Shown: piece by piece, positions 22,897 through 44,113 of the stretch
Layout: each line of letters begins with the position of its first letter
How positions within the stretch are numbered: the stretch's first letter is position 1
From: Erwinia persicina
Lineage (GTDB): Bacteria; Pseudomonadota; Gammaproteobacteria; Enterobacterales; Enterobacteriaceae
Assembly (NCBI RefSeq): GCF_014838825.1
Contig: NZ_JACYMO010000002.1
Location: forward strand, 540,269 to 604,268
Length of the DNA stretch: 64,000 nucleotides
Direction of reading: 5' to 3'
Notes under the pieces: generated by a model
The model's input: only the letters and a program-made list of their open reading frames with translations
Databases searched by the model: none
What the model was told of the DNA's origin: nothing
Program-made: the position numbers and the translations under genes

Positions 22897-22970
22897 GCGG
22901 CCATCGTATAATGGTATTACCTCAGCTTCCCAAGCTGATGACACGGGTTCGATTCCCGTTGGCCGCTCCA
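22897..22970 (+). tRNA. tRNA-Gly (anticodon CCC)
   Basis: The 74-base gene begins GCGGCCATCG and ends with encoded CCA. The anticodon loop is TTCCCAA between CTCAGC and GCTGAT stems, giving anticodon CCC. The T-arm GGGTTCGATTCCC is canonical. It lies between the dGTPase/nucleotidyltransferase pair and the flagellin gene. I saw no second copy of its 3' end in the flanks. Confidence 0.95.
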
Positions 22971-23077: not shown

Positions 23078-24988
23078 ATGCTAAGTCTAAAAACCAATAT
23101 GTCAGCGCTTGTCGTGCAGCAGCATTCCCTGAAAACCAGCTCTGCCCTTGATGAGTCTATCCGTCGCCTCTCCTCCGGGATGCGCATCAACAGCGCCCGC
23201 GACGACTCGGCGGGACAGGCAATTGCTAACCGCCTGACCAGCCAGCAGAAAGGCCTCGCCCAGGCGCAGCGTAACGCTGCCGACGGCCTGTCACTTGCTG
23301 AAACCGCTGAAGGCGCACTGAGTGAAATTAACGATCGTTTACAGCGCATCCGCGAACTGACCGTTCAGGGGGTGAGTGAAACCTATTCTCAGACCGACAG
23401 TGATGCGATTCAGGCCGAGATTAATCTCAACCTGAAAGAGATAGACCGGCTGAACAGCAGCGCCAGCTTTAACGGCATCAGCCTGTTGAACGGTAGCGCG
23501 GGAAAAGTGGGCTTACAGGTGGGGGCGTACGATAATAATAAAATCGACCTCGACTTAACGCACGGGTTCAGCGTTGAACAACTCGGGTTAAAAGACCTGA
23601 TTATTCGCGGTATCAGCGGGGCGGTCTCACCGGTCAATACCCTCACTGGCATTGCCAATAATATTGCGCTTAACAGCGGGGCTGTGTCGGTCAGCTATTC
23701 CACCAACGGAACACTGACCTCACCGCAGCTGGTCAGAAGCAACGTCAGCAATCAGCTCTACATACAGGGAACGGCTGCTGACGGCACGGCGGCTTTTTAT
23801 CCGGCCTCCTACGCCGCCACCTGGACAACCGCGACGGCCAGCGGCACAGTGACTGTCGGCACCACCAGCATGACGCCCCTCTTCAGCGCCGTGAATGACG
23901 TTGCCGCCCGCCCGTTGCCGTCGGTTAACTTCCTGGACGACAGCGGCAACGCCCTGGCCACCAGCCCGCCGCCCACTCTCACGGAAAGTAACGGTCAGTA
24001 TTATATTGAGCAGAACGATGTCTATTACGCTGCCGGGATCCGCTTTAGCACCAGCGGGAATGTCACGGCGCAGATAACTCAGGCCACCGGTCAGCCGGAC
24101 ACCGATTTTTCCCCCCTGCCGGCCCTGGTCACGCAGACACCGGCCATCGATATCAGCGCGGCGACGGTGATCTTTACCGATGCCAGCGGCAGTCCCGTCG
24201 CAGGCAGTGATGCCCGTCTGGTCCAGTCCGGGGGGCAATACCTGATGGAAGTAGCGGATGGCAGTGGTAACTATCAGTATTACAATGCCAGTGTCAGCGC
24301 CAGCAGTGACGGGACGAACAACACCGTCAGCGTGACGGCCAGCAGCAGCACCAGCCAGAACAGCTTTACGGCCGTATCGACCGTCACGGGAACCTCCATC
24401 GTGACCCTCGACCCGGCCAATGTGGAAACCCGCTACAGTGATGCCAGTGGCAACACATTCAGCGATGTGCTGCGCCTGGACGCCAGCGGTAACTATTATA
24501 TGGACGTGCACGGCGCGACTGTCGATAAAACGGCCACGTTGGTTAGTCAGGATGACGGCAGCAATACGCTGCTGCTGAAAACCCTACAGGGCGTGGGTGA
24601 CGTCCAGATTTACTTCGCTACCACCCTGGCCGCCGTCACGGATGCCTCCACCAACAATACCCAGATGAGCATTGCGGAGGTCGGGGCGGAGATCCGCCTG
24701 CGTAACCCGGACGATCCGCTGGCCACCCTGGACCGCGCTATCAGTCGCGTGGACAGCCAGCGATCGCTGCTCGGGGCCACCGCTAACCGCCTGATGTCGG
24801 TACAGAACGTGCAGGCCACCACCACCACCCATCTCGCCACCTCACGTTCACGCATTGAGGATGCCGATTATGCCGCCGAGGTTTCCGCGCTGACCCGCGC
24901 GCAGATCCTGCAGCAATCGAGCGCATCGCTGATGTCGAAAGTGATGACAATGACGCCGCAGATGATTATGTCGTTACTGGAGGGGTAA
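23078..24988 (+). CDS. Flagellin
   Basis: The 636-residue filament protein has a full N-terminal D0/D1 region (NMSALVVQQHSLKTSSALDE, RLSSGMRINSARDDSAGQAI). The C-terminal D1/D0 region is also complete (RIEDADYAAEVSALTRAQIL ... MIMSLLEG). The middle 400 residues are Ser/Thr/Gly/Asp-rich and repetitive in style, a large surface-exposed variable domain. The gene has its own sigma-28 promoter, but no chaperone, cap, hook or motor gene is nearby. Together with the Flag-2 scar 2 kb away this suggests a surviving lateral-type flagellin, or a second filament gene used by a flagellum encoded elsewhere. Confidence 0.92.
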   Translation: MLSLKTNMSALVVQQHSLKTSSALDESIRRLSSGMRINSARDDSAGQAIANRLTSQQKGLAQAQRNAADGLSLAETAEGALSEINDRLQRIRELTVQGVSETYSQTDSDAIQAEINLNLKEIDRLNSSASFNGISLLNGSAGKVGLQVGAYDNNKIDLDLTHGFSVEQLGLKDLIIRGISGAVSPVNTLTGIANNIALNSGAVSVSYSTNGTLTSPQLVRSNVSNQLYIQGTAADGTAAFYPASYAATWTTATASGTVTVGTTSMTPLFSAVNDVAARPLPSVNFLDDSGNALATSPPPTLTESNGQYYIEQNDVYYAAGIRFSTSGNVTAQITQATGQPDTDFSPLPALVTQTPAIDISAATVIFTDASGSPVAGSDARLVQSGGQYLMEVADGSGNYQYYNASVSASSDGTNNTVSVTASSSTSQNSFTAVSTVTGTSIVTLDPANVETRYSDASGNTFSDVLRLDASGNYYMDVHGATVDKTATLVSQDDGSNTLLLKTLQGVGDVQIYFATTLAAVTDASTNNTQMSIAEVGAEIRLRNPDDPLATLDRAISRVDSQRSLLGATANRLMSVQNVQATTTTHLATSRSRIEDADYAAEVSALTRAQILQQSSASLMSKVMTMTPQMIMSLLEG

Positions 24989-25030: not shown

Positions 25031-25327
25031 TCAGGTTTTACTCACCGTCCAGGTTTTGACTTTATCGTTTTGCAGGCGAACCGTCAGGGTTCTGCCTTCG
25101 GTGGTACTGCCGGTTTTCGCCTGGCTCCACGTCCACATCAGTATCGACTGCCCCTGCGGAAAGGGCGTGTCTGAAGAAGGCTCACCAAACAGCGCGATCA
25201 GATCCTGCTTTGTGGTGACATCATGATGGATACTGGCCAGCTGAGCATCATCGAAATTGTTCCCCACGGATGCGGTGCATCCGGTCAGCAGCGCCAGCAT
25301 CAGGCACCCGATTATTTTTTTATTCAT
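25031..25327 (-). CDS. Small outer-membrane-type lipoprotein, SmpA/OmlA-like fold
   Basis: This 98-residue precursor has a lipobox (LMLALLTGC, Cys 16) with no Asp at +2, so outer-membrane sorting is expected. The mature part contains VTTKQDLIALFGEPS and a C-terminal beta segment (GRTLTVRLQNDKVKTW). That resembles the BamE/OmlA-like fold seen in many small lipoproteins. The specific role is unknown. Confidence 0.75.
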   Translation of the reverse strand: MNKKIIGCLMLALLTGCTASVGNNFDDAQLASIHHDVTTKQDLIALFGEPSSDTPFPQGQSILMWTWSQAKTGSTTEGRTLTVRLQNDKVKTWTVSKT

Positions 25328-25410: not shown

Positions 25411-26130
25411 TCAGGGCATCACGATGCGTTTGCTGAACATGGTATTGAGCGCCAGCGTGAGCAGCCCCGCGCCAACAACCATCAGAAACAGATATCCCAG
25501 CCAGTGATACAGCCAGATCCCCGCCACACCGCCCAGTAAAAACGCCAGGATGGTATAAAAGTGCAACCGCAGGCGTTCCAGATACTGCGGGGCATTTTGC
25601 GGCGACTCTTTACGGCGCAGCACGTCAAACAGCATGGCCAGCTCAATGCCAATATCGGTTGCCGTACCGGAGACATGGGTGGTTCTGACCCGCGCATTGG
25701 AGATCCGGGTGACTACCGCATTTTGCAGCCCCATCAGAAAGCTCAGACTGAGGATCAGCAGAGCCCCCGGCGACGCCAGCGGCAGCCAGCTTGCCACCGC
25801 GCCCAGCACCACCAGCGCCAGCCCCTCTATAAATATATTCACGGCATAAATCGTGCTGATGGCTCTTCTGCGACCCGCATTAATAATCAGGGTGGACAGC
25901 GCCGAGCCGGCAATAAACAGCAAAACAATGGCCAGAAAGAAAATGCCCGCCGTCAGATTGGCCTTAGCCAGATGGTCCGAGAGCGAAGAGATATTGCCCG
26001 TCATATTGGCCGAAAAAAAACCGACACTTTCAAAGGCTGCCGTATTCAGCGCCCCGGCAACGGCGGCCAGCGTACAGGCCAGGCGGCTATCCGTATTGAA
26101 GGTCCTTGCCGCATCGGTACTGATCAACAT
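25411..26130 (-). CDS. DUF1275 (YoaK-type) membrane protein
   Basis: This 239-residue integral membrane protein has about six hydrophobic spans. It shows the DUF1275 pattern: AAVAGALNTAAFESVGFFSANMTGNISSL near residue 30 and GLQNAVVTRISNARVRTTHVSGTATDIG near 135. The family is widespread and of unknown function. It lies between the lipoprotein and the Flag-2 scar and is probably monocistronic. Confidence 0.85.
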   Translation of the reverse strand: MLISTDAARTFNTDSRLACTLAAVAGALNTAAFESVGFFSANMTGNISSLSDHLAKANLTAGIFFLAIVLLFIAGSALSTLIINAGRRRAISTIYAVNIFIEGLALVVLGAVASWLPLASPGALLILSLSFLMGLQNAVVTRISNARVRTTHVSGTATDIGIELAMLFDVLRRKESPQNAPQYLERLRLHFYTILAFLLGGVAGIWLYHWLGYLFLMVVGAGLLTLALNTMFSKRIVMP

Positions 26131-26278: not shown

Positions 26279-27040
26279 TCAAGGCACTAAGGGTGAGTCA
26301 AGGCGGTCAATAATCGGCTTGATGACCTTCACGCCGTGCCGCCCGTAAAACTGGTACAACGTGTCTGATGCCGCCTGGGTCAGGACCATAATTTCAATGC
26401 GCCGGTTACGGGCAGACAGCGGATTGGCCGGGTCGAGTAACATCCTGTCGGCCATGGCACTGACCTGGATGATGCGCTGAACGTCCAGTCCGCCGTTTTC
26501 CAGTACGGTTCTGGCTGCCAGGGCGCGATCGCCGGATAAATTCCAGTTGTTATAGCCCGCACTTTGGCGATAGTGCGCGGCATCGGTATGGCCGTTGATC
26601 ACCACCTGGTTATCAATGCGGTTAAAGACCGGTGCCAGCTCGCCCAGCAGGCGTGAAAAAAACGGCGTCATCTGCGCGCTACCGCGTGGGAACATCACCC
26701 GATCGTCGTCGTCCTGCAGCAGGATGCGCAGCCCCTGGGGCACTTTTTCCAGCGAGAGATTTCCCTGCGCGTTTAAGTCTGCCGTGATGCGGGTAATCGC
26801 CTCGCTCAGCGCATCCAGCTCCCGATCGGAGCGTGACAGCACGTTTTCCAGCGTCTCCGGCGGTGAGGGCGACGTGACCTCCCCCTCCTCCGGATCGCTC
26901 TCTGCCGGCATCTCGCGAAAGACCGGTGCAGGACCGGGGATCGCCGGATCGCTCACCGGGCTGAACAGGGTTCCCTGAAAAATCGACGTTCCGTTGAGGT
27001 GAGCTACGATCTCCTCACGTTCCTCTTTCGATACCGAGCC
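26279..27040 (-). pseudogene. lafU: lafU remnant: lateral flagellar motor MotB-like protein lacking its N-terminus
   Basis: The open frame encodes the C-terminal OmpA/MotB peptidoglycan-binding domain (VVINGHTDAAHYRQ, NLSGDRALAARTVLENGGL, NPLSARNRRIEIMVL). The N-terminal cytoplasmic part, single membrane span and MotB plug segment are missing. At its 5' end the frame runs straight into sequence antisense to the lfhA remnant (junction about 27,040). That layout shows a deletion scar, so the product cannot work as a stator protein. The unrelated upstream residues are not part of the gene. Confidence 0.82.
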
Positions 27041-27041
27041 C

Positions 27042-28757
27042 ACGATTAATTTCGTGGTGGTGACCAAGGGCGCTGAACGTATTTCTGAGGTCTCCGCACG
27101 TTTCACCCTCGACGCCCTCCCCGGCAAGCAGATGGCGATTGACGCCGATCTGAATGCCGGACTGATTAATCAGGAACAGGCGCGCGTCCGGCGTAAAGAC
27201 GTCGCCAGTGAGGCTGACTTCTACGGGGCCATGGACGGGGCCTCTAAATTTGTACGTGGGGATGCCGTTGCCGGGATTATGATCCTGCTGATCAACGTAA
27301 TCGGCGGTATTCTTATTGGTATTTTTAAACACAATCTGGATGCCGGACAGGCCTTTGACCAATATGTGCTGCTGACCATTGGCGATGGGCTGGTGGCCCA
27401 GATCCCGTCCCTGCTGCTGGCAACAGCAGCAGCGATTATCGTCACCCGGGTCAGTGACGACGACAGCAGCGGGATATCTGACGACATTCAGCGTCAGCTG
27501 CTGGCCAAACCTGCCACGCTTTACACCGCCGCGCTGGTGATGTTCGTGCTGGCGGTGGTGCCGGGGATGCCGCACACGGTATTTCTGATTTTTACCGCCC
27601 TGCTATTGTTTACCGCCTGGCGTCAGAACCGGGTGGCCGACAAGCCTGCCCAGAGCGCCGGGGATCTGGCGGCGTTAAATACCGTGCTGGAGGAGAGTGA
27701 CAGCGTTACTGTCTGCTGGCAGAGTATTCCTCTGATTGAACCATTGGGGCTCAACCTGGGCTATAAGCTGGTGACGCTGGTGGACAAAGCCAAAGGCAGC
27801 CCGCTGACCCAGCGCGTACGCGGCGTGCGTCAGGTCGTGTCGGAGACCAGCGGGGTGCTACTGCCGGAGATGTCAATCAGGGAAGATTTCCGTTTGAAGC
27901 CCGCGCAGTATGCCATCAAGGTTAACGGGGTGCGTACGGCAGTGGGTGAAGTGCATGCGGATCGCCTGATGGCGATCCCCACCGCCGATCAATACGGCGA
28001 AATCGACGGCGTACTGGATACCGACCCGGCATACGGACTGGCCGTCACCTGGATCACCCCGGAAATGAAATCCCAGGCGCTGAATGTGGGCTATCAGGTG
28101 GTCGACTGCGCCAGCGTTATCGCCACGCATATCAACCGGGTGACGCGGGAGCACCTGCCCGAACTGTTTAACTACGATGATATCACCCAGCTGAACCTGC
28201 GGCTGGCGGGGGTGGCCCCTAAGCTGGCGGACGACCTGAACAGCGCACTGAACTTCAGCCAGCAGCTTAAGGTATATCGTCTTTTATTGCAGGATCAGGT
28301 CTCGCTCAAGGACATCGCAACCATTGCGACCACGCTGGTAGAGAGTGCGGCAATCACTAAAGATGCCATTTTACTCGCCTCCGACGTACGCTTTGCCCTG
28401 CGCCGGGCGATGGTGGCGGCCATTGCGCCGGATAACAAGCCACTGTCGGCCTATACGCTGGATAACCAGCTGGAGGATCTGCTGCTGGGGTCACTGAACC
28501 AGGCGCAGCAGGCGGGGAAAGTCAGCCTGGACAGTTTCCCCGTCGATCCGAATATACTCACCCAGCTCCAGTCTACCCTGCCTGTCGTGCTGGAACAGCT
28601 TAAGGCACAAAACATGACGCCGGTACTGCTGGCCACACCGCAGTTAAGGCCGCTGATCGCCCGTTACAGCCGTCTGTTTGCCGCCGGGCTGCACGTGCTT
28701 TCTTACAATGAAGTACCCGATGAAGTGGATTTACGTATTGTGGGGACAGTGAACTGA
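27042..28757 (+). pseudogene. lfhA: lfhA remnant: flagellar export protein FlhA-like, lacking its N-terminus
   Basis: From INFVVVTKG onward the reading follows FlhA/LfhA closely: SARFTLDALPGKQMAIDADL, then EADFYGAMDGASKFVRGDAV. Further membrane spans and the cytoplasmic domain follow (LLQDQVSLKDIATIATTL), ending near IVGTVN. The first roughly 130-140 residues, including several membrane spans, are absent. The 5' end abuts the truncated lafU in the opposite direction. A 567-codon frame from the GTG at 27054 stays open and could still be translated, but without function in export. Confidence 0.85.
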
Positions 28758-28801: not shown

Positions 28802-28876
28802 TTACAGTTTCCAGCCATTTGCCGCCGCCGTTGCTTCAGCATTGAAGTGGTTGGCACCGCACCACTCACGGAACAT
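28802..28876 (-). other. Out-of-frame conserved C-terminal segment of microcin-like gene 1
   Basis: One frame away from the 28866-29051 gene, the minus strand reads MFREWCGANHFNAEATAAAN then GWKL and a stop. The second microcin-like gene has a matching segment (REWCNNMGFDAEKSAALNGW) in its own alternative frame. A shift of a single base just before it would give an 82-residue protein. I infer that this is the true C-terminus of the family. Confidence 0.6.
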
Positions 28877-29051
28877 TCCACTGAATGTCTACATGTTCGC
28901 CGTTGATGGAAATGGTGGAAGGATTGAGGTGCATCTCTTTGCAGTATTTCATGAAATCCAGGAATTTGTTGCCGAGTGACTCCCCAGGCGACAGTGCCAT
29001 ATCACCGGCACCGGATACGGCATTGCATTCTGCGGCATTTAACATTTTCAT
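28866..29051 (-). CDS. Microcin/class II bacteriocin-like precursor 1 (frameshifted)
   Basis: As read, 61 residues begin MKMLNAAECNAVSGAGDMAL, a leader of the double-glycine type (VSGAG followed by D, as in class II microcins cut by peptidase-ABC exporters). The core SLGNKFLDFMKYCKEMHLNP follows. The frame then ends early (QWNVP), one base out of phase with a C-terminal segment conserved in the paralogue at 29.6 kb. Relative to the paralogue this copy seems to carry one extra base around 28883-28895. It may be a decaying gene, a phase-variable gene or a recoding site. No immunity or export gene is adjacent. Confidence 0.65.
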   Translation of the reverse strand: MKMLNAAECNAVSGAGDMALSPGESLGNKFLDFMKYCKEMHLNPSTISINGEHVDIQWNVP

Positions 29052-29533: not shown

Positions 29534-29638
29534 TTAGTTGAGTGTCCAACCGTTTAATGCTGCACTTTTTTCAGCATCGAAACCCATATTATTGCACCAT
29601 TCACGATAAAGTGAACCAATACCCAGAGATACCCCCCC
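29534..29638 (-). other. Out-of-frame conserved C-terminal segment of microcin-like gene 2
   Basis: Starting at the seven-base G run (minus strand, 29638-29632) the alternative frame reads VSLGIGSLYREWCNN then MGFDAEKSAALNGWTLN and stops at 29534. One extra G in the run would join it to the leader part and give an 83-residue protein, with exactly the same distance (20 residues) from the KEM motif to REWC as in gene 1. Confidence 0.6.
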
Positions 29639-29784
29639 ACTTTTGACGAGAGAGGATCGATGCCCATCTCTTTTACGTACTTAAGGTAGGATAATAAAAG
29701 TACTAAACCCCAGTTTTGCAGTGCTGCAGGCATATCTCCAGCACCGAAAACGGCGCTCACTTCGGCTAAACTTAAAACTTTCAT
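29554..29784 (-). CDS. Microcin/class II bacteriocin-like precursor 2 (frameshifted at a poly-G tract)
   Basis: As read, 76 residues start MKVLSLAEVSAVFGAGDMPA, a paralogue of the leader in gene 1. The shared core is YLKYVKEMGIDPL. After a run of seven G the current frame continues with an unrelated hydrophobic tail (YLWVLVHFIVNGAIIW). The conserved REWC...AE..AA.NGW segment lies in another frame. A length change in the G run would switch between the two C-termini, which suggests phase variation or a mutation. No dedicated transporter or immunity gene is nearby. Confidence 0.65.
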   Translation of the reverse strand: MKVLSLAEVSAVFGAGDMPAALQNWGLVLLLSYLKYVKEMGIDPLSSKVGGYLWVLVHFIVNGAIIWVSMLKKVQH

Positions 29785-30741: not shown

Positions 30742-31433
30742 ATGAAGGCGACGATGCGGGCGGCAGAACGAGACTGGAAGTGGATCGAGAAGGCTCCAGT
30801 CATCAAAGTCCCACAGGAAAGGAACAAGCGAGTTCGCTGGCTTGAGCCGCAACACCTGGTAGAAAATGCCCGGAGCCATTGCGCTCTACTGTTGAGTTTG
30901 CGCTGGCAACAGGCCTGCGCAGGTCTAACATTGTTGACCTTACATGGCAGCAAATTGACATGCAGAGAAAGGTGGCGTGGATTTATCCAGAGGACAGCAA
31001 GTCAGGCAGAGCTATTGGCGTAGCACTGAATGACACGGCGTGCGCTGTTCTCCGTCGTCAGATTGGTAATCACCACGCCAGCGTATTTGTTCACACGATT
31101 GCATCGAAGCGTAATGACGGCACGTCAACAGCATCTGTCAGGAAAATGCGAGTTGATTCTAACACTGCATGGCGTGCGGCGTTAAAGCGTGCGGGTATTG
31201 AAAACTTCCGCTTTCGTGATTTGCGGCATACGTGGGCAAGTTGGTTGTTTCAGGCTGTCGTTCCGCTTTCGCCGCTGCAGGAAATGGGAGGCTGGGAAAG
31301 CATAGAAATGGTACAGAGGTATGCGCACCAGGCACCTAACCACCTGACTGAACATGCCCGGCATATTGATGCGATTTTTAAGGTGGATGTCCCAAATCTG
31401 TCCCACTCGGGAAAATTGAAAACGGGGAGTTGA
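30742..31433 (+). pseudogene. Tyrosine-recombinase integrase remnant (prophage, DLP12-like)
   Basis: The frame from 30742 reads [20 protein letters not shown], the end of a core-binding domain. One base is missing near 30865-30870. The catalytic domain then continues in another frame with [27 protein letters not shown] and [14 protein letters not shown], the Arg, His-X2-Arg and Tyr sites of phage integrases. The N-terminal arm-binding domain is absent. The 3' end stops 25 bases before an att copy of tRNA-Arg, as expected for an integrase that used the same site. Confidence 0.8.
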
Positions 31434-31458
31434 CTGTAAGTGATTGAAAGATATTGGA

Positions 31459-31471
31459 CCCTACAGGATTC
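31459..31471. repeat. Left attachment-site copy of the tRNA-Arg island
   Basis: CCCTACAGGATTC is identical to 13 bases at the 3' end of the tRNA-Arg gene (44044-44056). The bases beyond also partly match. It marks the island end opposite the integrase. Confidence 0.75.
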
Positions 31472-31530
31472 AACTTAAAACATCAATCAGCTGAAAAATA
31501 TCATATATTTATAGTTCAATTTAGTTTAAT

Positions 31531-31549
31531 GCCCCCATAAGTGCCCCCA
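31531..31549. repeat. GCCCCC-N6-GCCCCCA motif near the left att site
   Basis: Two GCCCCC blocks spaced by six bases mirror an identical arrangement at 43905-43923 near the right att site. They are likely arm-type binding sites for the P4-type integrase. Confidence 0.5.
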
Positions 31550-32010
31550 AATAGTTTTTTGGTGCTCAATCTGACGGGTGTTATGAGTAAGGCCGACTCT
31601 TTCATTGCACAGATGCCTTGAAAAATAAAACTCATTAACGTAGATTCGGGTTTGTAACTTTGCTGTCAATGACAGCCACCAATGTTTCGAGTATCAGGAT
31701 GATACCGGTGATCTGAGAGAAACGCCTTCGGGTGGTCACACGAAATTTGCCGTAGCCTGAAAGGCAATGCTCTTGATTGAGCGGTAAATCTACCCACTCT
31801 TGGAAGTAGATATCGTCAACTAAAACCGCTCCTACTGCGTGACGATGAGAGTTCATTTAACTAACGAAACATCCTTATGTGATGTTTCTTGGGTCGAGAA
31901 AATTCCATATCAGGGGTAATTCGACTTTCAACCATGCTGATAGTGCTTCGCTATCAGCTCCTTGCACAACGCCACAACGATGCGCAGTAACAATCCACTT
32001 CACAGCGCAG

Positions 32011-32055
32011 TCATAGCTGCACCATTCATAGCTGCACCATTCATAGCTGCACCAT
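32011..32055. repeat. Three perfect 15-bp tandem repeats
   Basis: The unit TCATAGCTGCACCAT occurs three times head to tail (32011-32025, 32026-32040, 32041-32055), with a diverged fourth element possible upstream. On the minus strand it would encode WCSYE-type repeats, but no gene is convincing there. Confidence 0.8.
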
Positions 32056-32151
32056 CTCAAAAAAATCATGGCGCGTGTTAAACGCTGCGGGCTGCACTTT
32101 GCTTATGCCGTTAGGCATGAGCAAACGGCAGTCGTGCTGCGTGCAATACGT

Positions 32152-32190
32152 GGCGTCACTTTTTGCGTGCCAACGCCTGAAAGTGACGCC
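32152..32190. other. Strong 11-bp stem-loop upstream of the integrase-domain gene
   Basis: GGCGTCACTTT and AAAGTGACGCC form a perfect 11-bp inverted repeat with a 17-base loop. It could be an RNA structure or a protein-binding site. There is no T-run, so it is not a typical terminator. Confidence 0.6.
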
Positions 32191-32484
32191 ATAGCGTAAA
32201 CCGCTGCCCATCCTCTACCTTCGCCCGTTTCAAACGGGTATCTGAATCTGACACCACGTTTTCATACACCAAATATCCATTTCTTAAAGGAGATCTGAAT
32301 TGTTGCCGAGGCAGGCATAAGCCTGGGGATTACCTGCAATAGCAGGCAGTTGCACTGAGTGCATCACTGACACCCCGAAATACCTCAACTGCACCCGCTC
32401 TGGCGCACAGGCAACTTTCAGTACGGAACGGTAGCGCTGTTTCCGTTATTAGCCATGCGCCAGAGAAGCAGATTGGAGTATCAG

Positions 32485-33369
32485 ATGAGTCGAACAGGTA
32501 GAGAAATGAAGCAGCTAGCGAAGCAGGCTGGCGGTAGTCACAAAACGGTACATGATCGCATTCGTATTGCTGACAGATTTTGTTATCACTTGCTGGCGTT
32601 GAATATTCAAATTCGCAGCGTCCAGTATTTGAAAGCGAGGCATATCGAAAGTTATATCGCTGCACGTCGGGGGCAAGGTATTGCCTTGCGCACATTGCAA
32701 AATGAGATGGCTGCTCTGCGCTCAGTTTTACATCAAGCCGGACGGGAAAAATTAGTAGTCTCAGAGAGATTAACTAATCGAGCGCTGGGACTCGGCGGCA
32801 GTAGCCGAGCAGGCACTAAATTCGCTATTCCAACAGAAAAATATCAGCAAGCCATTAATCAAGCTCGACAGCTTGATGAGGGACTAGCAATTGCCCTTCA
32901 GTTATCACGCTTATTGGGCTTACGTTCACAAGAGGCCGTCCAATGCAGCGCCTCCCTTAAGACCTGGCAAAAACAACTCGGCCAAGGAGCTGAAAGACTG
33001 AGTGTTGTCTTTGGTACCAAAGGCGGTAGGCCGCGCGAAACACGCATTTTGGACCGAGCAGCAGTTAGCAATCTAATAACTCAAGCCCTGGTTATTGCCA
33101 AACATCGCAACGGTAAACTTATTGACCGCGCTGATCTCAAAACAGCCATGAATTATTGGCGCACAGCTACAACACGTATTGGTTTGATTGGCTCCCACTC
33201 TCATCACAGCCTCCGCTATGCATGGGCACAAGATGCGATTCGCTTTTATCAGGAGCAAGGCTTTAGCCGCAAAGAAGCTAATGCCCTCACTTCAATGGAT
33301 CTCGGTCACGGCGATGGGCGTGGTCGCTATGTCGAACGTGTCTATAGCCTTCAGGAGGGTCAAGCATGA
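32485..33369 (+). CDS. Integrase-domain protein of the satellite/ICE type
   Basis: From the ATG at 32485 the 294-residue protein begins MSRTGREMKQLAKQAGGSHK. It has an N-terminal SAM-like DNA-binding region (QYLKARHIESYIAARRGQG ... LHQAG). A divergent recombinase-like catalytic region follows (LQLSRLLGLRSQEAVQC, HSLRYAWAQDAI, DLGHGDGRGRYVERVY). This type occurs in genomic islands and integrative elements alongside a separate main integrase. The HxLRxxW and GHxxxRGRYV segments suggest some catalytic residues are kept. It overlaps alpA by 4 bases. Confidence 0.8.
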   Translation: MSRTGREMKQLAKQAGGSHKTVHDRIRIADRFCYHLLALNIQIRSVQYLKARHIESYIAARRGQGIALRTLQNEMAALRSVLHQAGREKLVVSERLTNRALGLGGSSRAGTKFAIPTEKYQQAINQARQLDEGLAIALQLSRLLGLRSQEAVQCSASLKTWQKQLGQGAERLSVVFGTKGGRPRETRILDRAAVSNLITQALVIAKHRNGKLIDRADLKTAMNYWRTATTRIGLIGSHSHHSLRYAWAQDAIRFYQEQGFSRKEANALTSMDLGHGDGRGRYVERVYSLQEGQA

Positions 33370-33563
33370 GCAACCTCACCTTAATCCGACTTTGCGATGT
33401 GATGAGTAAAACCGGGGTCAAAAGAGCCTGGATTTACAAACTAATGAAAAAGAATGAATTTCCGCAAGCCGTTAAGCTCGGGGCTCGTTCAGTAGCATGG
33501 GTAGAGAGTGAAGTGGATGAATGGATCTCAAGTAAAATCAACCAACGTGATGGAGCACATTAA
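33366..33563 (+). CDS. AlpA-family excision/transcription regulator
   Basis: The 65-residue protein is a MerR-like excisionase-type helix-turn-helix: LIRLCDVMSKTGVKRAWIYK, then FPQAVKLGARSVAWVESEVDEW. AlpA/Vis proteins of P4-like elements activate integrase or excision and late regulation. Start and stop codons overlap the genes on both sides, so it is part of the island operon. Confidence 0.93.
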   Translation: MSNLTLIRLCDVMSKTGVKRAWIYKLMKKNEFPQAVKLGARSVAWVESEVDEWISSKINQRDGAH

Positions 33564-34069
33564 TGCTGAATTCATTTTTTTCCCTGGTAGGCGATTTTAA
33601 GTATAATCCGCCCACTACGGCAAAATCCGTAGCCGGAATTAGCGTTCCGAAATTCTTCTTGATGCCCAAATCTTCGGGCAATGCTTGCGCGCGCCTGTCA
33701 ATGGTGGCTCAGGCGGGGGCTTCGCAAGAAGCGCCGGTTTCCAAGAAGGCCGGTAACGCTAACTCCGTCTGGGCTACCACCCAAGGGGTTAGCGTCTCTG
33801 GTGGTAGTCAACACAACTACTTCTTGGAGGCGGCCCTATGGCTACTACCCTTCCTTGTTTGCACCCGCAATACATCCCTCTTCTTTCGGGGAGGAAATAT
33901 GTTTGATCTAACAACACTTTCTGCCAAAGAAGTTCTCGACTACTGCCGTTCGTTATCGTTTACGATCGTCAAACCAGACAATACATTTGCCAAGGAGCTG
34001 CTTACCGACGTGCTATGTGAGCACCTTAATCCGCTGAATGAAAAGATGAAAGCGGGAGGCAAACCATGA
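33563..34069 (+). CDS. Ash/Icd-like family frame of a P4-type satellite
   Basis: The 168-codon frame contains the typical Ash-family text (AKSVAGISVPKFFLMPKSSG, MVAQAGASQEAPVS, KAGNANSVW). In P4-like elements this text overlies the immunity/CI-RNA region. The last third is probably made as a separate 56-residue protein from the ATG at 33899. Whether the upstream part is a real protein or mostly an RNA-coding region is unclear. Confidence 0.55.
   Translation: MLNSFFSLVGDFKYNPPTTAKSVAGISVPKFFLMPKSSGNACARLSMVAQAGASQEAPVSKKAGNANSVWATTQGVSVSGGSQHNYFLEAALWLLPFLVCTRNTSLFFRGGNMFDLTTLSAKEVLDYCRSLSFTIVKPDNTFAKELLTDVLCEHLNPLNEKMKAGGKP
33774..33807 (+). ncRNA. Possible P4 CI-type immunity RNA stem-loop
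   Basis: CTACCACC and GGTGGTAG form an 8-bp inverted repeat around AAGGGGTTAGCGTCTC. Just upstream lies GGTAACGCTAACTCC, which is partly complementary to the loop side (TTAGCGT against ACGCTAA). In phage P4 the CI RNA lies in the same place and pairs with flanking sequences to force early termination. The match is by layout, not by sequence identity. Confidence 0.35.
33899..34069 (+). CDS. Small island protein with strong ribosome-binding site (56 aa)
   Basis: A GGGGAGGAAAT site directly precedes an ATG inside the longer Ash-like frame. The product begins MFDLTTLSAKEVLDYCRSLS and ends EKMKAGGKP, and is mainly alpha-helical and soluble. Its stop overlaps the primase start (ATGA). The function is unknown. 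The strong translation signal argues that this is the protein actually made from this end of the frame. Confidence 0.65.
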   Translation: MFDLTTLSAKEVLDYCRSLSFTIVKPDNTFAKELLTDVLCEHLNPLNEKMKAGGKP

Positions 34070-36084
34070 CTAATTGCGTAACTGAAACCATTTCCGCATC
34101 TCGTCATCGTTGGGAGGAAATCCTTTTTCAATTAGGTATCAACTTACCCGGGTTGAACAAACATGGTCCTTGTCCATGCTGTGGAGGAAAAGACCGCTTT
34201 CGCTTTGATGATAAAGATGGCCGTGGTACATGGTTCTGCAATCAATGTGGAAATGGCGATGGATTAGATCTGGTTGTTAAGGTTAAAAAATGCAATCCAC
34301 TGCAGGTGACAAGACTCATTTCAGAACTCAGTCTGCCCCACCAAACTGCGCCTGCCAGGGAAAAAGGATCAAAGCCCTGTGCATCAATTGAAGCAATGAG
34401 ACTGCTTAACTCATCACGCATTGCTACGAGCCCGTACCTGGAAAAAAAAAGGTTATCCGCATCTGTTCAAATGCTCGGAATTCAGAAAGCGCTGACAATC
34501 GGCGGAGCCAGTTTTGATAATGACTCAATTGTCCTACCAATTCACGATATCGATGGAACGCTGGTCAGCGCACAATTGATCAATGCGGACGGTGAGAAAC
34601 GATACTTGCCAGGTACTCGTCAAAATGGTGGATTCATCAAGGTTGGCGATTCGAGTAATACAGCAAATATCATCATCACGGAAGGCTATGCCACTGCATT
34701 AACAGTAAACCTTGCAACAGGTCATTTGGCGTTAGCAGCGATGTCTGCAAATAACTTACTGAATATCGCTGTCACTGCGAGGCATAAATATCCCAACAGC
34801 AAAATAATCATAGCTGCTGAAAATGATTCCATAGCGGCTAATAACGTTGGTTTAGTACAAGCAGAAAAAGCGGCAGTAACTGTGAATGGCTGGGTTTCGT
34901 TCCCCCCTGATCAAAACGTTAGCGATTGGGATGATTATCGCCAAATCCATAACGAGGCGGCGGTTAACCAAGCATTTCATTTGCAAATGTACCAGCCAGA
35001 CTCACAGCTTTTATCAACCTCACGTATTCAAGAACGTAAGCCAGATCTCAGCACATCCCTTCCCTTGCGCAAGGGCTCTGATGGATTTGATACACGACAG
35101 GATTACCTTATCAAAGGCTATCTCCCCAGCGCGTCAGTAACCAGCGCATATGGTGCAAGTGGTTCTTATAAGTCCTTTCTGGCGGTCTCTTGGGGATGCC
35201 ATATTGCCACTGGTAAGCCTTGGGCAGGCAGACCAGTTACGCAAGGTGCAGTAATCTATGTCGTTGGTGAAGGCGGAATTGGGGTTCCACGCCGAATTCG
35301 TGCCTGGGAAGAAACGCTCAATAACGGCTCACCAATCGACACACTTTACCGCATCGACTGTCCCATTTTCCCTGCCAGCTCCGAAAGCGTGCAGCAAGTT
35401 ATCAGGGCCGCCAATGATGTTAAAGCAGCTTCAGGCATGCCTGTCAGATTGATTATTTTAGATACTCTCGCCCGCTGCTTTGGTGGCTCAGATGAGAATG
35501 CTGCCAAAGATATGGGTGCATTTATTCAGGGTTGCGACGTTATCAAGGCAGCTACTGAAGCTACCGTCTTAGTCATCCATCACTCTGGTAAAGATCAGGA
35601 CAAAGGTGCGCGCGGTTCCAGTGCATTTCGTGCTGCTCTCGATGTTGAATTCAACGTCCGCCGCGAAGGTGAAGGCGGAGCGCTGATTCTTAGCTGTACA
35701 AAAATGAAGGATGCCGAGGAGCCACCACGGCAGGCTTATGACTTGGTGCCGGTAGATCTCTACATCGATAATGATGGTGACCAGATTTCCTCGCTAGTTT
35801 TAAATGATGAGGGACGACCTGTCATGGATGACACCGATCCCGAGCTAACCGGCATTTCACGTCTGACTGACAATCATGTTGCCCTTTGGCAAGCCATTCG
35901 CTCCCGAACCGCCAACGGTGATGCCTGTACTCGTGCGCTAGTTAGAGATGACATGCGAGCGATGGGATTCGATGTCTCTAAGAAATTCACTCGTTGGCTG
36001 GATAAGCTGGAAAAGGAAGGCCGTGTCATTTGTGACGGTGATCATATCAGGCCGGTTTCTCAGGAGTTTAAAGCGGGGGAATAA
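34066..36084 (+). CDS. P4-type zinc-ribbon/TOPRIM primase fused to RepA-like helicase
   Basis: This 672-residue replication protein has an N-terminal primase zinc ribbon (CPCCGGKDRF ... WFCNQCGNGDGLDL, residues about 36-70). A TOPRIM region follows (IIITEGYATALTV, KIIIAAENDS, about 205-250). Next comes a RecA-like AAA domain with Walker A GASGSYKSF near residue 363 and Walker B-like LIILDTLARCF, then a C-terminal winged-helix-like tail. It would both unwind and prime DNA for autonomous replication of the element. An iteron-like cluster begins at its 3' end. It overlaps the upstream small gene by 4 bases. Confidence 0.9.
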   Translation: MTNCVTETISASRHRWEEILFQLGINLPGLNKHGPCPCCGGKDRFRFDDKDGRGTWFCNQCGNGDGLDLVVKVKKCNPLQVTRLISELSLPHQTAPAREKGSKPCASIEAMRLLNSSRIATSPYLEKKRLSASVQMLGIQKALTIGGASFDNDSIVLPIHDIDGTLVSAQLINADGEKRYLPGTRQNGGFIKVGDSSNTANIIITEGYATALTVNLATGHLALAAMSANNLLNIAVTARHKYPNSKIIIAAENDSIAANNVGLVQAEKAAVTVNGWVSFPPDQNVSDWDDYRQIHNEAAVNQAFHLQMYQPDSQLLSTSRIQERKPDLSTSLPLRKGSDGFDTRQDYLIKGYLPSASVTSAYGASGSYKSFLAVSWGCHIATGKPWAGRPVTQGAVIYVVGEGGIGVPRRIRAWEETLNNGSPIDTLYRIDCPIFPASSESVQQVIRAANDVKAASGMPVRLIILDTLARCFGGSDENAAKDMGAFIQGCDVIKAATEATVLVIHHSGKDQDKGARGSSAFRAALDVEFNVRREGEGGALILSCTKMKDAEEPPRQAYDLVPVDLYIDNDGDQISSLVLNDEGRPVMDDTDPELTGISRLTDNHVALWQAIRSRTANGDACTRALVRDDMRAMGFDVSKKFTRWLDKLEKEGRVICDGDHIRPVSQEFKAGE

Positions 36085-44036: not shown

Positions 44037-44113
44037 TGGTACGCCCTACAGGATTCGAACCTGTGACCTACGGCTTAGAAGGCCGGTGCTCTATCCAACT
44101 GAGCTAAGGGCGC
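44037..44113 (-). tRNA. argU: tRNA-Arg (anticodon TCT), argU-like
   Basis: The 77-base gene begins GCGCCCTTAGCTCAGTTGG and ends ACCA. The anticodon loop is TTCTAA, giving anticodon TCT. The T-arm is CAGGTTCGAATCCTG. The first acceptor pair is a G-T wobble, possibly because the 3' end was rebuilt by the inserted island. Its position next to folD matches E. coli argU. Confidence 0.95.
44044..44056. repeat. Right attachment-site copy inside tRNA-Arg
   Basis: CCCTACAGGATTC in the T-arm/acceptor region of the tRNA gene is repeated at 31459-31471. It delimits the island. Confidence 0.75.

Follow-up and report, generated by a model that had tools for sequence, protein, structure and literature searches.

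A flagellar deletion scar in Erwinia persicina with the same junction as in Escherichia coli and other enterobacterial lineages

A Flag-2 deletion scar in Erwinia persicina

In a 64,000-nucleotide stretch of Erwinia persicina DNA (hereafter the window; positions 540,269-604,268 of contig NZ_JACYMO010000002.1, or G000:C2:540269-604268, with G000 denoting the window genome), lafU and lfhA, the two end genes of the Flag-2 lateral-flagellum cluster, lie side by side, and both are incomplete. How was the interior of the cluster lost, and why does the join fall exactly where it does? The two genes adjoin on opposite strands with their 5' ends facing, and both lack their 5' parts. The lafU remnant (26,279-27,046, minus strand), derived from a MotB-like stator gene, has lost about its first 45 codons, and the lfhA remnant (27,045-28,757, plus strand), derived from the export-gate gene, about its first 131; each is open down to its stop. 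The product of the former has an OmpA/MotB-like C-terminus and finds its best NCBIfam model in LafU (positions 41-296 of 297), with a score below the model's cut-off, as expected of a fragment. The product of the latter aligns with FHIPEP from about position 103 of 657 through the end. Set beside the intact genes of the relative G027, the window lacks approximately residues 1-45 in LafU and residues 1-131 in LfhA. The protein models and this comparison confirmed the head-to-head pair of a 5'-truncated lafU (minus) and lfhA (plus) described by a first-pass annotation of the window. That annotation had placed the meeting point at about 27,040; the exact join lies at 27,045-27,046 instead, where an AT dinucleotide is common to both gene ends. 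A third shared base (C) exists only where lfhA reads ATC, and the window reads ATT. In the region around the join (27,000-27,127) each open frame continues past it, antisense to the other gene.

Full-length lfhA and lafU with the intervening cluster elsewhere in the same assembly, a sign of misassembly, were looked for and not found: the window genome has one full-length FlhA (G000:C1), in addition to the truncated LfhA of the scar, and one FliF. No second flagellar system was detected by these two markers, the other Flag-2 genes not having been searched individually, and the single full-length FlhA and FliF imply that no complete second system is present.

Among 37 genomes of the genus, the scar occurs in the window genome, G008 and G019, and full-length lfhA in six others (G012, G020, G024, G025, G027 and G031). 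A lafU match lies 33-36 kb from the full-length lfhA in five of these six; the sixth, G024, has only a more distant MotB-like match. The site was also compared in sister strains, as the first-pass annotation had proposed. On the lafU side (the lfhA side was not compared) the scarred window, scarred G019 and intact G020 have the same neighbours, and scarred G008 and intact G027 have another neighbour in common, a GGDEF gene. The flanks of the E. coli scar differ, with dinB on one side and rayT-yafL on the other, whereas in the window a DUF1275 gene stands beside lafU. Since neighbours are common to scarred and intact relatives, the cluster was lost where it stood, and this site is not the one that it has in E. 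coli. The chromosomal location is therefore unusual only in relation to E. coli, as had been proposed, and not for the genus, as intact G020 illustrates. By these comparisons, the locus is shown to be the empty site that remained after an in-place deletion of the interior of the Flag-2 cluster.

The same junction in many genera

No gap interrupts the alignment of E. coli N1420 with the window, G008 and G019 across the join, and the Erwinia scar is identical to the E. coli scar to the base. The idea that this was a Flag-2 deletion scar of the E. coli kind was thus not only borne out but understated, the same two bases being joined in many lineages. For a wider view, a family sample of 392 genomes, drawn evenly from a larger group, was searched with full-length LfhA, a match of E 1e-182 or better being taken as strong. 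Strong matches were found in 82 genomes: 67 full-length (including four that have just 56-57% identity with the query and may not be Flag-2) and 15 starting at query residue 125-131, spread over 11 genus codes; frameshifted scars below the E-value limit of this search would escape the count. The break in lfhA falls at one base in all 15 truncated genes. That in lafU falls at one place, the Ile codon after Trp45, in 14 of them; the fifteenth, G274 (locus L123), is weighed below.

A degenerate pattern of the join matched 15 times in the genome contigs (genome_contigs), and 13 of the matches are this scar, in records of Erwinia, Pantoea (2), Cedecea, Citrobacter, Atlantibacter (3), Escherichia (3), Yersinia and Kluyvera; the other two (L053 and L065) were dropped as ordinary flhA genes. 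The pattern can find only this junction, and the unbiased count is the 15 of 15 given above for lfhA. An exact pattern search of the viral contigs (viral_contigs) revealed no viral carrier of the scar. Among plasmid records, 161 match the E. coli scar query, 19 of them covering at least 80% of it, and several are 214-242 kb K-12 plasmids or chromosome-sized records; we take these K-12 plasmids to be F-primes.

Other arrangements of the two genes were also seen. In G638, G758 and G490 the Flag-2 lfhA and lafU stand tail to tail, 0.7-2.5 kb apart, in an order permuted relative to the usual cluster. G387 has full-length lafU and lfhA with their 5' ends facing, about 3 kb apart, which reflects either a large interior loss sparing both end genes or a different arrangement. 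By eye, the ends in G274 have an 8-base inverted match in common (ATCATCAA).

The scar itself is of a known kind, and its base-exact recurrence is the new part. As in the lfhA-lafU (fhiA-mbhA) deletion of E. coli, Shigella and other Enterobacterales, the same end genes are truncated and the interior is lost, here with the same join base as in E. coli. Such deletions were reported in 531 of 4,028 strains across the Enterobacterales (De Maayer et al. 2020, PMC6993521). In its accessible text, that account credits direct repeats at the ends, citing earlier work, and does not compare the junction across genera, whereas we find a junction that is identical and recurrent, with no useful repeats outside E. 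coli. Likewise, the accessible text of a study of E. albertii (PMC11420993, 2024) describes a uniform pair of truncated flhA and lafU in Flag-2-negative strains and contains no base-level comparison; we found the same junction in E. albertii NBRC 107761. No statement of a base-identical junction across genera, or of a lack of usable repeats, was found in the available portions of the Flag-2 and fhiA-mbhA literature searched, the earlier source on direct repeats lying outside its scope. That source is probably a 2005 Flag-2 paper in J. Bacteriol.

Prevalence and a before/after pair in E. coli

The scar is present in 4,051 of 5,426 E. coli genomes, a genome being counted if 80% or more of a 211-base query spanning the join was covered at one place. 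The N-terminus of lfhA occurs in 1,275 genomes and its C-terminus in 5,332. Scar and N-terminus counts add up to 5,326 against these 5,332 (sums, not paired genome by genome), so nearly all E. coli carriers of lfhA either keep the N-terminus or have this very scar. The scar strain 19451123 and the intact strain C21 differ at 1 of 12,306 positions to the left and 2 of 22,824 to the right (3 of 35,130 in the 35 kb of flank compared), and 35,368 bp are gone from the former. As far as the flanks show, these two strains are a before/after pair of the deletion.

Sequence at the joined ends

In six intact pairs, the gene ends have only AT or ATC in common at the join, and no direct repeat of useful length was found at the two ends. 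Between lafU and lfhA of C21, by comparison, there are 25,113 exact same-orientation matches of at least 3 bp, 18,121 of them of exactly 3 and 48 of at least 8 bp. Microhomology, which the first-pass annotation had suggested looking for, is thus limited to AT(C), with many longer matches on offer; we judged it insufficient as a cause, and it does not explain the junction. Because shared homology fails to account for the join, the ends were probably brought together by a site-recognising mechanism.

Repeat-mediated loss of Flag-2 does happen. In E. coli WB61 (L208) the same cluster is lost and both end genes are truncated, as in the standard scar, but the junction is a different one: the ends are joined via TGCCCGG, within a repeat that has 9 bases in C21, as opposed to the AT(C) of the standard scar.

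Two features of the ends are hints at a role of structure. The lfhA end consists of the 12-base palindrome TGATGATCATCA, which 43 of the 56 intact genes contain, and the two ends are partly alike in the inverted sense, with a mean identity of 0.63 over 21 nt in 35 genomes, which is in the top 0.013% of 39,186 in-frame windows generally. We regard this inverted likeness as a lead.

Independent origins

We inferred a maximum likelihood tree from the 1.7 kb part of lfhA common to all, comprising 21 scars and 56 intact genes (50 of the 67 full-length family matches and the 6 from the genus search). The scars do not form a clade, and several have an intact sister (G008/G027, G652/G574, G413/G294 and G596/G666). 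The tree contains 19 changes of state, 15 of them forced by its starred branches; shuffled labels average 18.5. To the right of the join, the nearest row is intact for 10, 14, 17 and 15 of the 21 scars at 45, 90, 150 and 240 nt, respectively, with ties assigned to scars. At 45 nt the nearest row is a scar, or a tie with one, in the other 11 cases, five of which point to another genus; from 90 nt outward the remaining scar neighbours are of the same genus except one.

Stronger evidence than this nearest-neighbour test comes from the longest tract that another scar could have donated, which was bounded in eight scar/intact pairs using 29 scars (each with the other 28 as donors, G274 left out). 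For G008, G652, G413, G596, G019 and the window, that tract stays below 6-10 bases towards lafU and below 3-81 bases towards lfhA. In E. coli E69 it is below 42 bases on the lafU side and below 129 on the lfhA side; in E. coli 19451123 it is unbounded on the lafU side and below 36 bases on the lfhA side. That homologous recombination carried the scar from genus to genus was set aside within the bounds given by the sampled donors, which leave room for unsampled close donors and for spread within E. coli.

We observe, then, what characterises site-specific recombination, a fixed pair of crossover points in separate events, with the lafU point at 14 of 15 and the separateness of the events read from the tree. 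It is probable that the same lafU-lfhA deletion arose independently in most of the lineages, and independent origin in many enterobacterial lineages is strongly supported, although not proven lineage by lineage.

Constraint on the remnants and age of the scars

In the 30 scars examined (the 21 above and 9 further ones from E. coli), lfhA is open in 29 and lafU in 29; the exceptions are lfhA of E. albertii, which closes after 336 codons, and lafU of KY202, which stops after 101. Polarised nonsynonymous/synonymous (N/S) counts, from triples hand-picked from the tree in which some intact rows were used several times, amount to 462/1,585 on scar branches and 482/1,567 on intact relatives, with a ratio of ~2.25 expected without constraint. 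Within E. coli, 12 scars have an N/S ratio of 0.104 and 5 intact genes one of 0.099, and the sister scars of A. hermannii and A. subterranea have N/S of 3/59 and 4/35, likewise to be set against ~2.25. To judge from these substitutions and reading frames, the remnants are shown to be free of apparent relaxation or decay.

Scar lineages look young, since neither remnant has begun decaying. Either nearly all the deletions are recent, or recombination keeps renewing the flanks, or some function is left in the truncated genes. Recency fits the pair of 19451123 and C21, whereas the 75% prevalence of the scar in E. coli sits uncomfortably with it.

How the junction may have recurred

The most probable account, in our view, is an in-place deletion of Flag-2 that recurs at fixed positions of lafU and lfhA through site-recognising or structure-driven joining. 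The interior of the cluster would be deleted from a set point within lafU to a set point within lfhA, and this would have been repeated independently in many enterobacterial lineages. The ends might be joined by a recombinase or a transposase-like activity that recognises both sites. Alternatively, DNA structure might drive their misjoining at the lfhA palindrome and the partly inverted-repeat end of lafU. That the mechanism is of one of these two kinds is a somewhat less secure part of the account, towards which we lean. Precise excision of transposons and site-specific recombination, in general, resemble the scar in their fixed crossover points, a direct repeat of 2-3 bp and a weak inverted similarity of the ends; they differ in that the scar is not linked to any transposase, integrase or circular product, no recombinase search having been made. 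A dedicated or recruited site-specific excision system recognising one lafU and one lfhA site throughout the Enterobacteriaceae is a more speculative and rather unlikely form of this explanation.

Several observations weigh against this account. No recombinase is assigned to the deletion (no candidates were searched for), and no convincing reciprocal join, as expected of a circle, was found in the 392 genomes, where four matches with one mismatch were judged from their letters to be due to chance. The inverted likeness of the ends is modest: with 1,424 membrane-helix window pairs as the reference it ranks in the top 0.13-0.35%, several offsets having been tried. In G274, lfhA is broken at the standard base and lafU further upstream, near its N-terminal Ile-Ile-Lys codons. 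Flag-2 has been lost in other ways as well, as in WB61 and, in a loss linked to IS1, in E. coli EC09. The branch parting the window scar from that of scarred G019 is weak (98 bootstrap, 25 SH-aLRT), and the two may be one event; moreover, the tree cannot distinguish loss from regain. The nearest-neighbour test is weak at short range once ties are counted, and the donor tracts of both E. coli pairs are poorly bounded. Finally, E. coli flanks are mosaic between strains: on the left, the scar strain 2018-01 has the same 1,700 bp as intact EC102 without a difference, and on the right it has 9 differences from C21; HB101 matches EC102 fully on the right side alone. Within E. coli, the scar may thus have spread by recombination too.

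This mosaicism also speaks for a single old deletion, identical by descent. Such a deletion could have been spread by homologous recombination, for which a short donor fragment is enough, or could be ancestral with intact clusters regained through the remnant flanks, the flanks being refreshed later by recombination with intact alleles. It would explain the base identity of the scars without any special mechanism, and the 11 of 21 scars nearest to or tied with another scar at 45 nt, five of them across genera, agree with it. We nevertheless hold it to be unlikely: donor tracts on the lafU side are under 6-10 bases in six of the eight pairs, scar neighbours from 90 nt on are of the same genus save one, G274 has lfhA broken at the usual base but lafU elsewhere, and old scars should have relaxed N/S and stops. 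In addition, for 61 intact lfhA genes the distances in the 5' part correlate with those in the 3' part (r = 0.82), although only 34 of the 61 have their closest 3' neighbour among the top two on the 5' side. Ordinary repeat-mediated deletion, in which short direct repeats at either end recombine or slip (the cause cited for E. coli), seems less probable still. The E. coli ends are indeed 14/24 alike around the join, a value reached by only 0.11% of the position pairs tried, which also counts against our own account, and this likeness may be the repeat cited in print. But exact identity is limited to AT(C), and in five Erwinia-group pairs the likeness is 8-11 of 24, two pairs having 11/24 (top 2-4%) and three an ordinary 8/24. 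Furthermore, longer repeats such as the one used in WB61 are present, and yet 4,051 E. coli genomes have the AT(C) join.

It could also be imagined that the truncated pair is functional and under selection, its exact junction being retained because it works. The open frames in 29 of 30 scars for each gene and the low N/S of the A. hermannii and A. subterranea sister scars are compatible with this idea, which we find hard to credit: separate deletions would not easily be brought to one exact base by selection, lfhA of E. albertii closes after 336 codons and lafU of KY202 has an early stop, and neither protein should work without its first membrane helices, judging from what is generally known of MotB and FlhA. 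As for an assembly artefact, the window genome is in 60 contigs, but the junction lies inside one of 662,898 bases and is found again in E. coli chromosomes whose records list them as complete, so that the probability of such an error is negligible.

Surroundings of the scar in the window

Two genes serve as markers of the locus on the lafU side, the DUF1275 gene adjoining lafU (25,411-26,130, minus strand) and a small lipoprotein-like gene (25,031-25,327, minus strand). The former is also beside lafU in intact G020 and scarred G019, and the latter is on the same side in both. Further out, 1.3 kb from the lafU remnant and directly after a tRNA-Gly(ccc) gene (22,897-22,970), is an orphan flagellin of 636 aa (23,078-24,988, plus strand), closest to FliC/FljB-type models with scores below their cut-offs; it was not seen between the corresponding neighbours in the sister genome G019.

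Right after lfhA, two small open reading frames (ORFs; 28,866-29,051 and 29,554-29,784, both minus strand) are alike in their first 17 residues (MK.L..AE..AV.GAGD). Neither has a Pfam or NCBIfam match, and their N-termini are reminiscent of bacteriocin-type leaders. They are followed by an integrase fragment (30,879-31,433, Pfam match) and, by eye, a second integrase-like ORF (32,455-33,369) and a primase/helicase-like ORF (34,066-36,084). This content suggests an integrated element at 30,879-36,084, between the scar and a tRNA-Arg(tct) gene at 44,037.

Significance for flagellar gene loss in enterobacteria

Large deletions are usually assumed to be random or to occur at repeats. In this case the loss comprises ~35 kb, and one lineage after another has it at the same two bases, where no usable repeat exists. 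With thousands of E. coli examples and a nearly identical pair of intact and scarred strains, its mechanism is directly testable in a laboratory strain. The absence of signs of decay in the remnants puts in question the view of fhiA-mbhA as a simple decayed relic, and flagellar repertoires deduced from single genomes may reflect very frequent recent loss. If a site-specific excision system did operate, Flag-2 would be lost repeatedly in the manner of a switch, which might be reversible across a population, and the scar would be its off state.
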